DNA of 20,976 nucleotides from a virus. The stretch spans positions 1 through 20,976 of IMG/VR virus record IMGVR_UViG_3300020457_000126. One strand, given 5' to 3'. Under the pieces are notes generated by a model. The model had not been told where the DNA came from. It was given only the letters and a program-made list of their open reading frames with translations, and did not search any database. Shown here piece after piece: positions 14,471 to 20,607 of this stretch (the first letter of the stretch is position 1; the number at the start of each line of letters is the position of its first letter). The translations under genes and the position numbers were made by a program.

Positions 14471-15143
14471 TCTGGGACCTAGTATTGTGATGTACAAATT
14501 CTTTAATATATCGAACTAGAAGTTTAATATAATCCCCTTTGTTCCTTTTGTCAAATACTTTTACTTCACCTGAAGGAGTTACCATCAAAGTAATAAGTTT
14601 TTTAACAGGGATTTCAGTTAGTTCATAGTAAGCAGCAGCATAAAAAGTCTCCTGTACGAAATAGTTTTCCAACCACTTCTCAGGTTTAATCTTCTCAGAT
14701 GTCTTAAAGTCTATGACTGCTAACTCGCCTTCATACTCCGCTATACAATCAACTCTACCTGCAAGACCAAGGTACTCAGAGTAAAGGGTTCTCTCTATAG
14801 CGTGTATGTTATTTATCTTATCCAGATATGGTGCTGCATGATGAAACATGAACTTGGTTGCTGGTCTATAATCATCCCAGTTAAGTTCTTTGTTCTCTAG
14901 ATATGCCTGTGCTGCCTCATGAAAATCAGTCCCACGAGCAGTGGCTTTCTTTGTAATTCTATTTGCTTCTTCTATACCTACTTTCTTCCTCCACTTAATA
15001 AAGATATCACGATTATAAAAGGATGTTACTGATGTAATAGAAGGAACCCACTGACCATCAGGTAGTTGATACAACCTACAACCAGGAGTTTCTTTCTTTT
15101 CTAATTCAAGTTCACCTAAGAAATTACAATGAGTAAAGGTCAT
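14460..15143 (-). CDS. PD-(D/E)XK exonuclease, MGME1/RecB-like
   Basis: The 227-aa protein carries the motifs of RecB-family nucleases: an early GTDFHEAAQAYLEN motif (around residue 70), GRVDCIAEYEGELAVIDFKT with the catalytic Asp...Asp-x-Lys (about 130-150), and QETFYAAAYYEL (the QxxxY helix, about 165). This is the layout of mitochondrial MGME1-type and cyanophage exonucleases, which degrade single-stranded or flap ends. It lies between phoH and gp33 in the replication region, so a role in recombination, end-processing or host DNA breakdown fits. The ATG at 15143 overlaps the phoH stop by 4 nt (ATGA), indicating coupling. Confidence 0.75.
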   Translation of the reverse strand: MTFTHCNFLGELELEKKETPGCRLYQLPDGQWVPSITSVTSFYNRDIFIKWRKKVGIEEANRITKKATARGTDFHEAAQAYLENKELNWDDYRPATKFMFHHAAPYLDKINNIHAIERTLYSEYLGLAGRVDCIAEYEGELAVIDFKTSEKIKPEKWLENYFVQETFYAAAYYELTEIPVKKLITLMVTPSGEVKVFDKRNKGDYIKLLVRYIKEFVHHNTRSQNGE

Positions 15144-15892
15144 AAATTAAGTTCCAGTTTCGCAAGTAAATATTCCTTACACAAACCTGATCTTACAATA
15201 TCCTCAACACCAAATTCAATGATGTCAACTGATGGCATGATACGAAGGATTTGCATGAAATCATGAATACCATTCCTCTCATTTTGCTTAATCAAATCAG
15301 TCTGAGTAGCATCACCACAGAACATTATTTTTGTGTCTGTACCGATCCTTGTTATTATACTATCTAATTCATGATAATTCAAGTTCTGGAATTCATCTAC
15401 AATAATGATAGCCTTATCTAATGTTGTACCACGAATGAATGATGTGCTCCAAAAGTCAATAGTATCTTGACCCTTAAGATTACCATAGAGCATTTGGAAG
15501 TCTGCATCTGATGGCATCTCAAACATATACTTCACCATATTCTTATAAGGAATCTGATAAAGTGATGACTTATCTTCATGGTCACCAGGTAAGAATCCAA
15601 TCTCTCTGGTGGCAACAAGTGACCTTACAATATAAATTTTATCATAAGGAGTGCTTGGATCTAGTACCTCTTGCAGAGCATTATAAAGAGTGATGAATGT
15701 CTTACCAGTTCCTGCTGCACCATAAGCAACAAGATTCTTTCCTTTCTTATAGGAGTCAAATAATTTTTTCTGATTATCGGTGAGGGGTTCGATGTCCCTC
15801 ATCATATCAGTATTAATGGGTTTCTTTCTTTTCATCTGCTTAGATGTTAATCCTACACCTATAGGTTGATCTGCTTTCTTTTTTCGTGCCAT
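15140..15892 (-). CDS. phoH: PhoH-like P-loop ATPase
   Basis: This 250-aa protein has a basic N-terminus (MARKKKADQPIGVGLTSKQM). An ATPase domain follows: Walker A GAAGTGKT (around residue 65), the KIYIVRSLVATREIGFLPGD motif, Walker B AIIIVDEFQNL (about 165) and sensor MFCGDATQTDL. That is the PhoH family, common in marine phages and usually placed with RNA metabolism or nucleotide-binding helicase-like functions; the Pho-regulon link is uncertain in phages. The start is ATG 15892, one nt after the stop of the upstream ORF; an upstream non-ATG extension lacks support. It is followed by the exonuclease with ATGA overlap. Confidence 0.9.
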   Translation of the reverse strand: MARKKKADQPIGVGLTSKQMKRKKPINTDMMRDIEPLTDNQKKLFDSYKKGKNLVAYGAAGTGKTFITLYNALQEVLDPSTPYDKIYIVRSLVATREIGFLPGDHEDKSSLYQIPYKNMVKYMFEMPSDADFQMLYGNLKGQDTIDFWSTSFIRGTTLDKAIIIVDEFQNLNYHELDSIITRIGTDTKIMFCGDATQTDLIKQNERNGIHDFMQILRIMPSVDIIEFGVEDIVRSGLCKEYLLAKLELNL

Positions 15893-16217: not shown

Positions 16218-16862
16218 TTAGGAAATCCAGTCAAGAGCTTCCGCAACAGTAGGAAATTGCTCTTTAAAAATAGAACGAACTCCTTCTGCTACTGCCATAT
16301 GCTCCTTCTGTGTTCCGTGTGCAGAACGTAGGTCAATGTAATGTACCCATGATCTTACAGAACCAGTCATATAGATTCTTGTAGGAGTAGCAAGAGGTAA
16401 TACAAACCTTGCACACTCCTTTGCTATACCTGCATCCAACATCTCTTTATACAGGTGCATTCCATCTACAAAATGCTTCTGCATCTTGGCATTAAAATGC
16501 TGTACCACAAGAGGATCTACATCATCAATACTATTCTGACGATTCTTATCATCTTGTCTCCTAAGTTCTGGTAAAGGAATTTCCTTACCCAACATACTAC
16601 TATCAGCATACCTTTGAGAGAACTCTTGGTATGTAAATGATCTATGACGTAGTATCTGTGCAGCAAGTCCTCTGGTAGTATTGATCTCTACCGTCATGAA
16701 TGCTTGCTCAAAGACACTCCAGTGACCGTGCTGGATGCAATACTTAAGAAGACCAGCAAACTTATCATTGTCTTGGTTCTTAGGGTTGCTAACACGGGCC
16801 ACGTATGCCATGTGCTTTTCAGCATCAGGAGTGACACTAACTAATTTAATTTGGGAATGCAT
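16218..16862 (-). CDS. thyX: flavin-dependent thymidylate synthase ThyX
   Basis: This 214-aa enzyme makes dTMP from dUMP using methylene-tetrahydrofolate, with NADPH and FAD supplying reductant. The ThyX signature RHRSFTYQEFSQRY (RHR-x7-S, about residues 72-86) is intact, and the C-terminal part has CARFVLPLATPTRIYMTG and SWVHYIDLRSAHGTQKE, which form the nucleotide and FAD sites. The length is standard. ATG 16862 (MHSQIKLVSV) is preceded by GAAGA and overlaps the upstream 56-aa ORF by 17 nt; a TTG at 16880 is less likely. It feeds phage DNA synthesis and fits with the glutaredoxin and pentose-phosphate genes nearby. Confidence 0.93.
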   Translation of the reverse strand: MHSQIKLVSVTPDAEKHMAYVARVSNPKNQDNDKFAGLLKYCIQHGHWSVFEQAFMTVEINTTRGLAAQILRHRSFTYQEFSQRYADSSMLGKEIPLPELRRQDDKNRQNSIDDVDPLVVQHFNAKMQKHFVDGMHLYKEMLDAGIAKECARFVLPLATPTRIYMTGSVRSWVHYIDLRSAHGTQKEHMAVAEGVRSIFKEQFPTVAEALDWIS

Positions 16863-17295: not shown

Positions 17296-17324
17296 ATTAT
17301 ATATTAAAAAAGGGGGTATGTAAA
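17296..17324 (-). promoter_or_regulatory. sigma-70 type promoter within terminator loop
   Basis: The minus strand reads TTTACA (17324-17319), a 17-nt spacer, then a perfect TATAAT (17301-17296). The -35 box lies in the loop of the intrinsic terminator of the upstream gene. Transcripts would begin about 16 nt before ATG 17273, with the GAGGAG site between, so the leader is very short. Confidence 0.65.
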
Positions 17325-17331
17325 CCCCCTT
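17304..17331 (-). terminator. intrinsic terminator after the DUF4278-like gene
   Basis: The minus strand has a 7-bp stem (AAGGGGG / CCCCCTT) with loop TTTACATA, followed by a T6 run. It begins 5 nt after the TAG stop of the riboswitch-controlled peptide, isolating that transcript from the thyX operon. Confidence 0.82.
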
Positions 17332-17336
17332 GTCAT

Positions 17337-17477
17337 CTAACTCTTAGAAGCGAACTTACGTTCTACTTTGATACCACGATACATTAAATCATGGTTTCTT
17401 TTTTGAGCTTCTGCTTGTACCATTTGACGGTACGCTTCAGAGTCGTACTTGACTCCACGGTAAGTGACTTGTGCCAT
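17337..17477 (-). CDS. DUF4278-like 46-aa peptide under glutamine-type riboswitch
   Basis: The product, MAQVTYRGVKYDSEAYRQMV then QAEAQKRNHDLMYRGIKVER, is small and basic and contains two copies of a YRGxK motif. The N-terminal 'TYRGVKY' resembles the DUF4278 family of cyanobacteria and cyanophages. Short ORFs of this sort are what the 'Downstream-peptide' RNA motif (glutamine riboswitch class) precedes. The GGAG site lies 7 nt before ATG 17477; an in-frame ATG at 17528 would run through the second aptamer and is not credible. The transcript is a one-gene unit: a strong promoter at 17607-17635, tandem aptamers, this gene, a terminator. In cyanobacteria the related riboswitch controls glutamine synthetase inactivating factor, so this peptide may influence host nitrogen metabolism; that is inference. 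Confidence 0.78.
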   Translation of the reverse strand: MAQVTYRGVKYDSEAYRQMVQAEAQKRNHDLMYRGIKVERKFASKS

Positions 17478-17480
17478 TGG

Positions 17481-17492
17481 CTTTCTCCAAAG
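17481..17492 (-). promoter_or_regulatory. hairpin presenting the ribosome binding site
   Basis: On the minus strand CTTT-GGAG-AAAG forms a 4-bp stem with the GGAG ribosome site in its loop, just before ATG 17477. The stem is weak (one GC pair), so it could be a minor element of a translational expression platform for the aptamers upstream. Confidence 0.3.
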
Positions 17493-17510
17493 TAGTAGGG
17501 ATTTTTGCCC

Positions 17511-17597
17511 CGTTCCTTCAGTCGGCATTTGCGTCCCCGTAGGGATGAACGATCCGTTCCGTGTCGGCTTACTTGCGACCTCTTCTGAGGTTGAACG
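17511..17597 (-). promoter_or_regulatory. tandem glutamine riboswitch-like aptamers (Downstream-peptide type)
   Basis: Two similar units follow each other with a 3-nt linker. Unit 1 (17597-17555) has closing stem CGTTC/GAACG, hairpin CCTC-AGAA-GAGG, the conserved CGCAAGTA, then GCCGACACGGAACG. Unit 2 (17551-17511) has CGTTC/GAACG, hairpin TCCC-TACG-GGGA, CGCAAATG, then CCGACTGAAGGAACG. This is the layout of the glnA / Downstream-peptide RNAs, known glutamine-binding riboswitches of cyanobacteria and cyanophages. Unit 2 departs from the CAAGTA consensus. The promoter at 17607-17635 would start RNA only a few nt before unit 1, and a 46-aa ORF follows. I recognise the motif from memory; a covariance-model search would settle it. 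Confidence 0.8.
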
Positions 17598-17599
17598 AT

Positions 17600-17617
17600 T
17601 GTGTTAATAATAACACA
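17600..17617. repeat. inverted repeat overlapping -10 box
   Basis: Perfect 7-bp arms TGTGTTA / TAACACA separated by 4 nt span the -10 hexamer of the riboswitch promoter. The symmetry and position are those of an operator, but no regulator is identified. AT-rich chance symmetry is possible. Confidence 0.4.
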
Positions 17618-17635
17618 TGTATACTATATAGTCAA
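17607..17635 (-). promoter_or_regulatory. strong sigma-70 type promoter for riboswitch transcript
   Basis: The minus strand reads TTGACT (17635-17630), a 17-nt spacer, then TATTAT (17612-17607), each one mismatch from consensus. Transcription would start near 17600, immediately before the first aptamer. It lies between the stop of the upstream ORF (17647) and the riboswitch. Confidence 0.78.
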
Positions 17636-19373: not shown

Positions 19374-19698
19374 GTCTATACCTCACTGCATCTTCAAGAA
19401 TACCTCCAAGGTATGCTTTTATTTTACGTGCTTGAGGTTTAGAGATATGTCCATAAGCCTCACGCAATTGTTTATGATCGTTGTCAGCACCTCCTTTAAT
19501 ATATTCTTGTAGTTCTATTATTTGATCAGAGATTTCCTTTGCGGTAGAACTCTGAAGAAAAGCATCTACTTCTACTTTTTTTGTTTTACGATATTCTAGA
19601 AACTGATAAAACTTTAATTGCATCTTGCCATCAAACGCAAGTTCAATGGCATGTTCAATCATGTCATATACCGTTTCAAAGTCATCAACTTTTTTCAT
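19333..19698 (-). CDS. conserved cyanophage hypothetical
   Basis: The 121-aa product, MKKVDDFETVYDMIEHAIEL onward, is helical with a conserved core (ADNDHKQLREAYGHISKPQA, ARKIKAYLGGILEDAVRY) and a basic C-terminus (DKRPGRRKKNSK). ATG 19698 overlaps the glutaredoxin stop (TGATG). ATG 19743 would add 15 residues that lie within glutaredoxin and is rejected. The basic tail and conserved His/Lys cluster suggest nucleic-acid contact, but no known fold is recognised. Confidence 0.72.
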   Translation of the reverse strand: MKKVDDFETVYDMIEHAIELAFDGKMQLKFYQFLEYRKTKKVEVDAFLQSSTAKEISDQIIELQEYIKGGADNDHKQLREAYGHISKPQARKIKAYLGGILEDAVRYRHDKRPGRRKKNSK

Positions 19699-19937
19699 CA
19701 GACTAATTTGTTCTCCTTTAGATACTGAACTGTCTCTGTACATCCACCGATGTGCTGTATGTCATTTATTACTACCTGAGGAAAGGTAGATCCTTGACCA
19801 AATTGATGGTAAAAACCTTCTCTATTAAAATCCTCACCTAAAGTATAAGTGACATGTTCTAACTTAGATAACTCTAACACCTGTTTAACCTTATCGCAAT
19901 AAGGACATCCATTTTTAGAATAAACAGTGAATTTCAT
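19698..19937 (-). CDS. nrdC: glutaredoxin
   Basis: This 79-aa thioredoxin-fold protein has the redox site CPYC at residues 11-14 (KFTVYSKNGCPYCDKVKQVL), the cis-Pro motif TFPQVVI and GGCTET at the glutathione site. It is the length of a minimal glutaredoxin and would supply electrons to ribonucleotide reductase or other phage reductases. ATG 19937 is chosen; the frame to 19970 would need TTG and overlaps talC. The symbol nrdC follows T4 usage and is tentative. It lies 16 nt after the talC stop. Confidence 0.88.
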   Translation of the reverse strand: MKFTVYSKNGCPYCDKVKQVLELSKLEHVTYTLGEDFNREGFYHQFGQGSTFPQVVINDIQHIGGCTETVQYLKENKLV

Positions 19938-19953
19938 ATACCTATTTAAAAAT

Positions 19954-20607
19954 TTATTTATTGTTAGCAACTACTGAGGCCCAATCGGCATCAAATAATT
20001 GCAATCCTTTGTCTGTAAGAACATGGTTGTACATCTTCTCAAAAACTGTTGGTGGCATCGTTACTACCTGAGCACCAAGGGCAAAAGAAGTAGAGACTGC
20101 TTTCACTCCTCTTATAGATGCAGATAGAATCTGAGTTTTGATCCAATGCTTACTATAGATCTCAGCAATGTCACTAATTACATCTAACCCATTAACTGAG
20201 TTATCGTCAAGTCTTCCTACAAATGGTGAAACATATGTAGCACCTGCCTTCGCAGCCAGTATTGCCTGTGCAGCATCAAAAATCAATGTAACATTAACCT
20301 TTGTACCATCTTTTGCTAACTGATTACAAACATAAAGACCATCTGGTGTACAAGGAACCTTGATGGTTGCTACTTCTTGGAACTTAGTGGCAAGTCTACG
20401 ACCCTCAGAGGTCATCTCTTCACGAGTTCCGACTACTTCCATACTAATGTCTCTTACACCTGCTTCAGCGAGTTCCTGGTACACATCCTCAGGATCTCTA
20501 CCACTCTTCATAATCAGGGTAGGATTAGTTGTTACTCCATCAATAAGTCCAGTCTCAAAATGTTCAAGAATGGTTGAGACATCTGCTGTGTCTAAAAATA
20601 TTTTCAT
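19954..20607 (-). CDS. talC: transaldolase-like protein TalC
   Basis: This 217-aa protein is of the short TalC/fructose-6-phosphate aldolase type. Seen are MKIFLDTADVSTILEHFE, GVTTNPTLIMKSGRD and the Schiff-base lysine in ATIKVPCTPDGL (about residue 83), then TLIFDAAQAILAAKAGATYV and SPFVGRLDDNS. In cyanophages it diverts carbon into the pentose phosphate pathway, supplying NADPH and ribose for nucleotide synthesis, and it replaces the longer host enzyme. ATG 20607 is the first in frame. The gene lies just after the psbA terminator with no clear sigma-70 promoter, so either read-through or a late box drives it. Confidence 0.93.
   Translation of the reverse strand: MKIFLDTADVSTILEHFETGLIDGVTTNPTLIMKSGRDPEDVYQELAEAGVRDISMEVVGTREEMTSEGRRLATKFQEVATIKVPCTPDGLYVCNQLAKDGTKVNVTLIFDAAQAILAAKAGATYVSPFVGRLDDNSVNGLDVISDIAEIYSKHWIKTQILSASIRGVKAVSTSFALGAQVVTMPPTVFEKMYNHVLTDKGLQLFDADWASVVANNK
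19955..19962 (-). promoter_or_regulatory. candidate late promoter box for glutaredoxin
   Basis: AATAAATA (minus strand) matches the late box TATAAATA at seven of eight positions and lies 17 nt before the glutaredoxin ATG, at the end of talC. The surrounding A/T richness makes a chance match possible. Confidence 0.35.

Follow-up and report, generated by a model that had tools for sequence, protein, structure and literature searches.

A probable composite glutamine-I riboswitch of two interleaved aptamers in a cyanophage leader

The leader of a short DUF4278 gene in cyanophage DNA is best explained, as a whole and with a probability of roughly three in four for structure and function together, as a composite glutamine-I riboswitch in which two aptamers are interleaved. 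Its architecture, as judged from comparison of related sequences, almost certainly consists of a canonical glutamine-I aptamer whose P3 arm houses another aptamer in circularly permuted form, a single P3 being shared by both. The element likely serves glutamine-activated translation of the DUF4278 protein with two coupled sites; we infer the binding, cooperativity and switching.

The locus and its relatives

The window, i.e. the entire stretch of 20,976 nucleotides analysed, is T4-like cyanophage DNA. The element occupies 88 nt of its minus strand (17597-17510), between a TTGACT-N17-TATTAT promoter and the gene of a 46-aa DUF4278 protein. Genes for thyX (Thy1, 16218-16862), phoH (15140-15892), a talC-like transaldolase (19954-20607) and glutaredoxin (19698-19970) are found in its neighbourhood. 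The features flanking the element are the following, with promoter boxes, palindrome and terminator-like hairpin recognised by their letters:

17630..17635, minus strand: -35 box TTGACT of the sigma-70-type promoter
17607..17612, minus strand: -10 box TATTAT
17600..17617, minus strand: DNA palindrome TGTGTTA-TTAT-TAACACA, overlapping the -10 box
17485..17492, minus strand: CUUUGGAG, Shine-Dalgarno region, pairable with CUGAAG (17516-17521) of linker B, loop E and b2 in a predicted ligand-free fold with partial covariation; putative switch
17337..17477, minus strand: gene of the 46-aa DUF4278 protein, ATG at 17477, stop at 17337 (Pfam PF14105, E 6.5e-6; phrog_5049, E 2.6e-21)
17304..17331, minus strand: intrinsic-terminator-like hairpin GGGGGTTTACATACCCCC-TTTTTT, which ends the one-gene unit

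A similar leader is present in 432 phage records, nearly all of them from cyanophages. Relatives were collected among viral and phage records, from IMG/VR by DNA pattern and from 21 named phage records by similarity, and pairing counts refer to 330 unique elements from related phages. The patterns that retrieved most elements contained GGAACG..CGTTC, and the parser required P2 stems of at least three pairs. The tree used for contrasts is based on 110 nt and is weakly supported.

A similar promoter lies directly 5' of the element in 251/324 relatives, and the expected start of transcription is a few bases at most from the element. Palindromes with arms of at least 6 occur in 73/114 relatives vs 8/114 shuffled sequences. 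Their sequence varies among phages (TGTGTTA-N4-TAACACA, GGTCTA-TAA-TAGACC, GGTATG-CTAA-CATACC), all overlap the -10 box before the riboswitch, and together they look like a set of diversified operators. The last of the three matches the NtcA pattern GTA-N8-TAC.

The 46-aa reading frame of the first-pass annotation is borne out, and the protein exceeds the Pfam cut-off for DUF4278 (PF14105; 26.9 vs 25.3 bits) and belongs to this family. A DUF4278-like motif is found in 296/303 downstream ORFs of relatives. At five loci (L094, L383, L386, L419, L427) the short downstream ORF lacks the motif, or no ORF of 30 aa is found; given these few elements, the regulated gene may change. The element also suggests that cyanophages broadly tie to host glutamine a DUF4278 protein, which is a relative of the N-terminal segment of IF17, an inactivating factor of glutamine synthetase (PMC6316151). 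The name PirA was considered for the 46-aa protein and rejected in favour of DUF4278, because PirA is missing from marine picocyanobacteria (PMC8092223).

The interleaved fold

The leader had been described in the first-pass annotation as two consecutive, self-contained aptamers. Two units with CGTTC/GAACG strands, short hairpins and a CGCAA core are indeed present on the minus strand: unit 1 (17599-17555) follows the pattern ..CGNAAGUA-linkerA-GGAACG-Y1, unit 2 (17553-17507) the pattern ..CGNAA-linkerB-(G/A)AAGGAACG-Y2, and they meet in the junction GGAACGG-AT-CGTTC. Here X denotes the third base of CGN, Y the base after GGAACG, and the numbers give the unit. Self-containment fails, since neither unit is complete and the long-range pair is formed crosswise. 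In the nested fold the element consists of:

17593..17597, minus strand: a1 CGUUC, 5' strand of the outer P1, pairing with b2
17578..17591, minus strand: P2a hairpin of the outer aptamer (99.5% of cells paired, changes on both sides in all 4 pairs)
17575, minus strand: X1 (C), long-range pair with Y2 at 17510, Watson-Crick in all elements
17570..17574, minus strand: AAGUA with the AGUA strand of loop E, invariant in A1
17562..17569, minus strand: linker A (AGCCGACA), 5' strand of the shared P3, covarying with linker B
17555..17560, minus strand: b1 GGAACG, 5' strand of the inner (permuted) P1, intact in all elements matched without requiring b1
17554, minus strand: Y1 (G), long-range pair with X2 at 17531, a standard pair in nearly all elements
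17547..17551, minus strand: a2 CGUUC, 3' strand of the inner P1, from the pairing in the nested fold
17534..17545, minus strand: P2b hairpin of the inner aptamer, site of ORF1 in relatives, with covariation across ORF1 there
17531, minus strand: X2 (C), long-range pair with Y1, covarying
17520..17527, minus strand: linker B (UGCCGACU), 3' strand of the shared P3, covarying with linker A
17517..17519, minus strand: GAA, second strand of loop E, by sequence and in unit 2 only
17511..17516, minus strand: b2 GGAACG, 3' strand of the outer P1, pairing with a1
17510, minus strand: Y2 (G), long-range pair with X1, covarying

The outer aptamer would thereby read canonically as CGUUC(a1)-P2a-CGCAAGUA-(P3)-GAAGGAACGG(b2), and the inner one, inside the P3 of the outer, would be circularly permuted to GGAACGG(b1)-AU-CGUUC(a2)-P2b-CGCAA.

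X1:Y2, the single long-range pair that closes a glutamine-I pocket, is Watson-Crick in 330/330 elements (222 C-G, 108 G-C), and X2:Y1 is paired in 322/330, with G-C and G-U replacements and eight unpaired cases, whereas the pairs within units form in only 225/330 and 222/330, being absent from about one element in three. Combinations compatible with crosswise pairing alone are frequent among the 330 elements (GGCC 95, CCGG 6); those compatible with within-unit pairing alone were never found among them. In 46 elements without ORFs the crosswise pairs are 100% paired with a covariation score reached by 0/500 shuffles, as against 76% and 124/500 for the within-unit pairs, which thus behave like shuffled data. 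On the tree X1 and Y2 change together about 8 times, with 1 contrast on supported branches, so that tree support is thin.

P3 is likewise formed between the units. The variable position of its long form is paired in 186/186 (U-A 111, G-C 58, A-U 15, U-G 2), seven of seven independent contrasts on supported branches agree in direction, and in the short (AGUCGC/ACGACU) and the GC-rich (GGACGGC/ACCGCCC) form both strands have changed in concert. Not one of 500 shuffles matches the helix in percentage paired or covariation score, and every slide is far worse; the long form retains two non-standard positions, C-A and A-C. With a1:b2, P2a and linker A:linker B, the outer aptamer possesses the three-way junction of P1, P2 and P3 typical of glutamine-I.

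Loop E is divided in the same manner: AGUA occurs in unit 1 only and GAA in unit 2 only in nearly all relatives, hence the AGUA/GAA loop E of glutamine-I is assembled at the outer junction, from one strand per unit. The difference between CAAATG (unit 2) and CAAGTA (unit 1) is real; its earlier reading as an affinity variant falls away, because the interleaved fold needs the AGUA strand only once and unit 1 supplies it. At the inner junction most members have no loop E. Loop E is present at both junctions in eight loci, and symmetric relatives include L097, L273, L277, L314 and L319. In the symmetric interleaved variants L288, L313 and L321, with loop E at both junctions, X2 = A faces Y1 = C, their inner long-range pair being therefore non-standard.

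The P1 strands are invariant, and the assignment of their partners consequently depends on the long-range pair, P3 and loop E. Where the search did not demand them, the inner P1 strands are intact (GGAACG in 71/71; CGUUC in 70, and on visual inspection in the remaining one), a count that also pools loci from earlier pattern searches. Energy folding gives -21.2 kcal/mol for the nested helices without P3 vs -16.9 for separate units; the minimum free energy structure (-24.3) has other pairs, and the nested fold is not ranked first. An interpretation of GAACG-GAU-CGUUC as a mere off-state hairpin competing with both P1 was dropped, as the long-range pairs place this hairpin in the main fold.

Database models treat the composite unevenly. 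In a 221-nt scan the glutamine-I model RF01739 matches unit 2 with 33.9 bits (E 5.5e-6) and unit 1 with 24.9 bits (E 0.0017), both below its gathering score of 35, and the glutamine-II (Downstream-peptide) model RF01704 reaches 21.2 bits on unit 2, its own cut-off being 33. The Rfam search for glnA and Downstream-peptide RNAs suggested earlier thus returns both units, each under threshold; the proposal of a glutamine riboswitch in a cyanophage leader before a short nitrogen-related protein stands in family and context, and its Downstream-peptide assignment is not supported by score. In S-H34 (43.7 bits) and ACG-2014f (41.1 bits) RF01739 reads the entire 91-92-nt composite as a single aptamer. 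A covariance model of the nested fold, built from 30 relatives with the window excluded, scores the element at 98.4 bits (E 1.1e-22), its sole site in the window. This match and the 432 records with a similar leader set the element apart from a chance pattern.

Two ordinary glutamine-I aptamers in series, each with its own P1 and acting as a pseudo-cooperative tandem switch, are a very improbable reading. Tandem glutamine-I riboswitches are known (PMC2864571; 157 doublets in PMC9481103), each unit alone gives a sub-threshold RF01739 match, and the identical P1 strands permit own-unit P1 pairing, perhaps as an alternative state; the failure of the within-unit pairs, set against crosswise pairs that hold in nearly all elements, contradicts it. 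Genuine tandem glutamine-I aptamers were found in at least 55 viral loci (L060, L263-L324), and there every unit comprises a local P3 hairpin (GUC..GAC or similar), both AGUA and GAA, and an X:Y pair within the unit that is G-C in 48/48 unique units, whereas neither unit of the window element has a local P3 or a complete loop E, and the P1, P3, loop E and long-range pair of its own that a tandem unit would require are not all there. In the tandem at L060 the following gene is not DUF4278-like. A glutamine-II riboswitch with GGAACG in the loop of the following stem as a pseudoknot has a weak RF01704 match on its side, and UGCC (17524-17527) could pair with a GGCA downstream of b2; that match stays under the cut-off and mispairs in the defining second stem, the downstream GGCA is missing from most relatives, and linker B pairs with linker A, which makes this reading highly improbable. 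There is equally little to recommend a DNA- or protein-binding repeat without glutamine role: a palindrome does overlap the promoter, yet the compensatory changes, which span as much as about 200 nt of coding sequence, and the conservation of glutamine-aptamer positions argue for an RNA aptamer.

More weight, although still unlikely, is due to the view that the outer aptamer alone senses glutamine, inner junction hairpin and P2b merely extending P3 with no second site. Most elements lack the AGUA/GAA loop E at the inner junction, and X2:Y1 is unpaired in 8/330; on the other hand the inner GGAACG/CGUUC, CG core and X2:Y1 are kept, none of which a plain stem extension needs, and symmetric relatives possess a full inner loop E.

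Small genes inside the P2 arms

A small ORF occupies one or both P2 arms in 201 of the 330 elements listed. The classes comprise 129 elements with hairpins in both arms (including the window), 118 with an ORF in P2b, 41 with one in P2a and 42 with both, frequencies that are not population estimates given the pattern-based fetching and the restriction to listed matches. ORF1 (phrog_504) measures 49-66 aa in the first set and begins a few bases past CGUUCAUCC. In 146/160 its stop UGA/UAA coincides with GACU(G/A)A, the loop-E region within linker B; its last residues (WDAND, WDAKAD) are therefore aptamer sequence. It lies fully inside the aptamer, from P2b strand 1 to loop E, in L001, L128, L129, L139-L141 and L143. 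ORF0 (phrog_6471) is placed in P2a likewise (L132, L135, L136, L138, L142). Codons of ORF1 change more at the third (0.60) than at the second position (0.21), and protein similarity is kept.

Pairs 4 and 5 of P2b, not required by the parser, are formed across ORF1 in 155/160 and 144/160, as C-G, A-U, U-A and U-G types. Supported tree contrasts for pair 4 go the same way in 4.4, the opposite way in 0.5 and show no difference in 4.1. A Shine-Dalgarno-like spacer AG follows b1 in 53/160 elements with ORF1 and is not among the common spacers of those without. RF01739 gives no match in P-SSM4, P-HM1, P-RSM4 and AG-345-O18, all of which carry ORF0 and ORF1. In relatives with protein genes inside the aptamer, folding around the ligand should be incompatible with translation.

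Proposed switching and known systems

L-glutamine is probably bound at both sites of the interleaved riboswitch, since each has retained P1, the long-range pair and the CG core. Glutamine would hold together outer P1, long-range pair, loop E and linker B. Without it, CUGAAG of linker B/b2 would be free to pair with the CUUUGG of the Shine-Dalgarno site, which would dampen translation, and the predicted ligand-free fold contains this pairing. In energy folding of the window leader the Shine-Dalgarno site was not released. Covariation for the anti-Shine-Dalgarno pairing is modest (linker B A with platform U in 37/37; G with C in 20 or U in 30), 2.7 of 5 supported tree contrasts agree, which is weak, and other platforms exist. 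High glutamine would then, with somewhat better than even odds, turn ON synthesis of the 46-aa DUF4278 protein, whose promoter is presumably early, being of the sigma-70 type. The ON direction agrees with published cyanobacterial glutamine riboswitches, both classes of which respond to glutamine by switching expression ON and lie mostly ahead of DUF4278 genes (PMC6316151, PMC6698751).

Coupled binding of the two sites via the shared P3 is plausible on the structural model, and the interleaved fold offers a concrete physical route to coupled sensing; the graded or cooperative sensing proposed in the first-pass annotation may thus still occur. It is a tentative further proposal that the two sites bind cooperatively through P3 and that in relatives glutamine flips the phage between embedded proteins and DUF4278; the embedded genes, with the start codon by P2 and the stop inside loop E, would be translated only when the sensor is unfolded.

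Glutamine riboswitches are known in T4-like cyanophages (PMC9964418, PMC9602691, PMC9004378), as are tandem glnA RNAs (PMC2864571), among them 157 doublets and 4 triplets (PMC9481103). The glutamine-riboswitch junction has a loop E with both strands in one junction and a single long-range pair (PMC12510878; PMC6698751). With glutamine-I (RF01739) the present element shares P1 CGUUC/GGAACG, the P2 hairpin, the CG core, the AGUA/GAA loop E, a single long-range pair and the DUF4278 context (PMC6316151); unlike it, the outer P3 holds a circularly permuted aptamer instead of a plain hairpin, and Rfam gives two weak window matches. As in tandem glutamine-I riboswitches (PMC2864571, PMC9481103), there are two aptamer-like units per leader, but here they interlock and share P3, and some reported glutamine-I tandems may be of the interleaved form. 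Glutamine-II (Downstream-peptide, RF01704) has the same glutamine pocket, small DUF4278 genes downstream and an ON switch (PMC6698751, PMC6316151), yet its pseudoknot topology is not seen in the window element. The glnA element of S-CREM1 (PMC9964418; OP535465; locus L134) is the same composite, annotated as one 99-nt glnA riboswitch; in the portion of PMC9964418 consulted it is filed as ordinary glnA RNA, with interleaving not described there. A literature search covering part of the relevant papers yielded no account of interleaving, of P3 harbouring a permuted aptamer or of ORFs embedded in a riboswitch aptamer. The interleaved fold and the embedded ORFs thus appear to be new; glutamine riboswitches, tandem pairs and the link to DUF4278 were known already. 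If the fold is true, this is a riboswitch with two aptamers threaded through each other, one of them circularly permuted, a feature that the tandem reading of the repeats hides.
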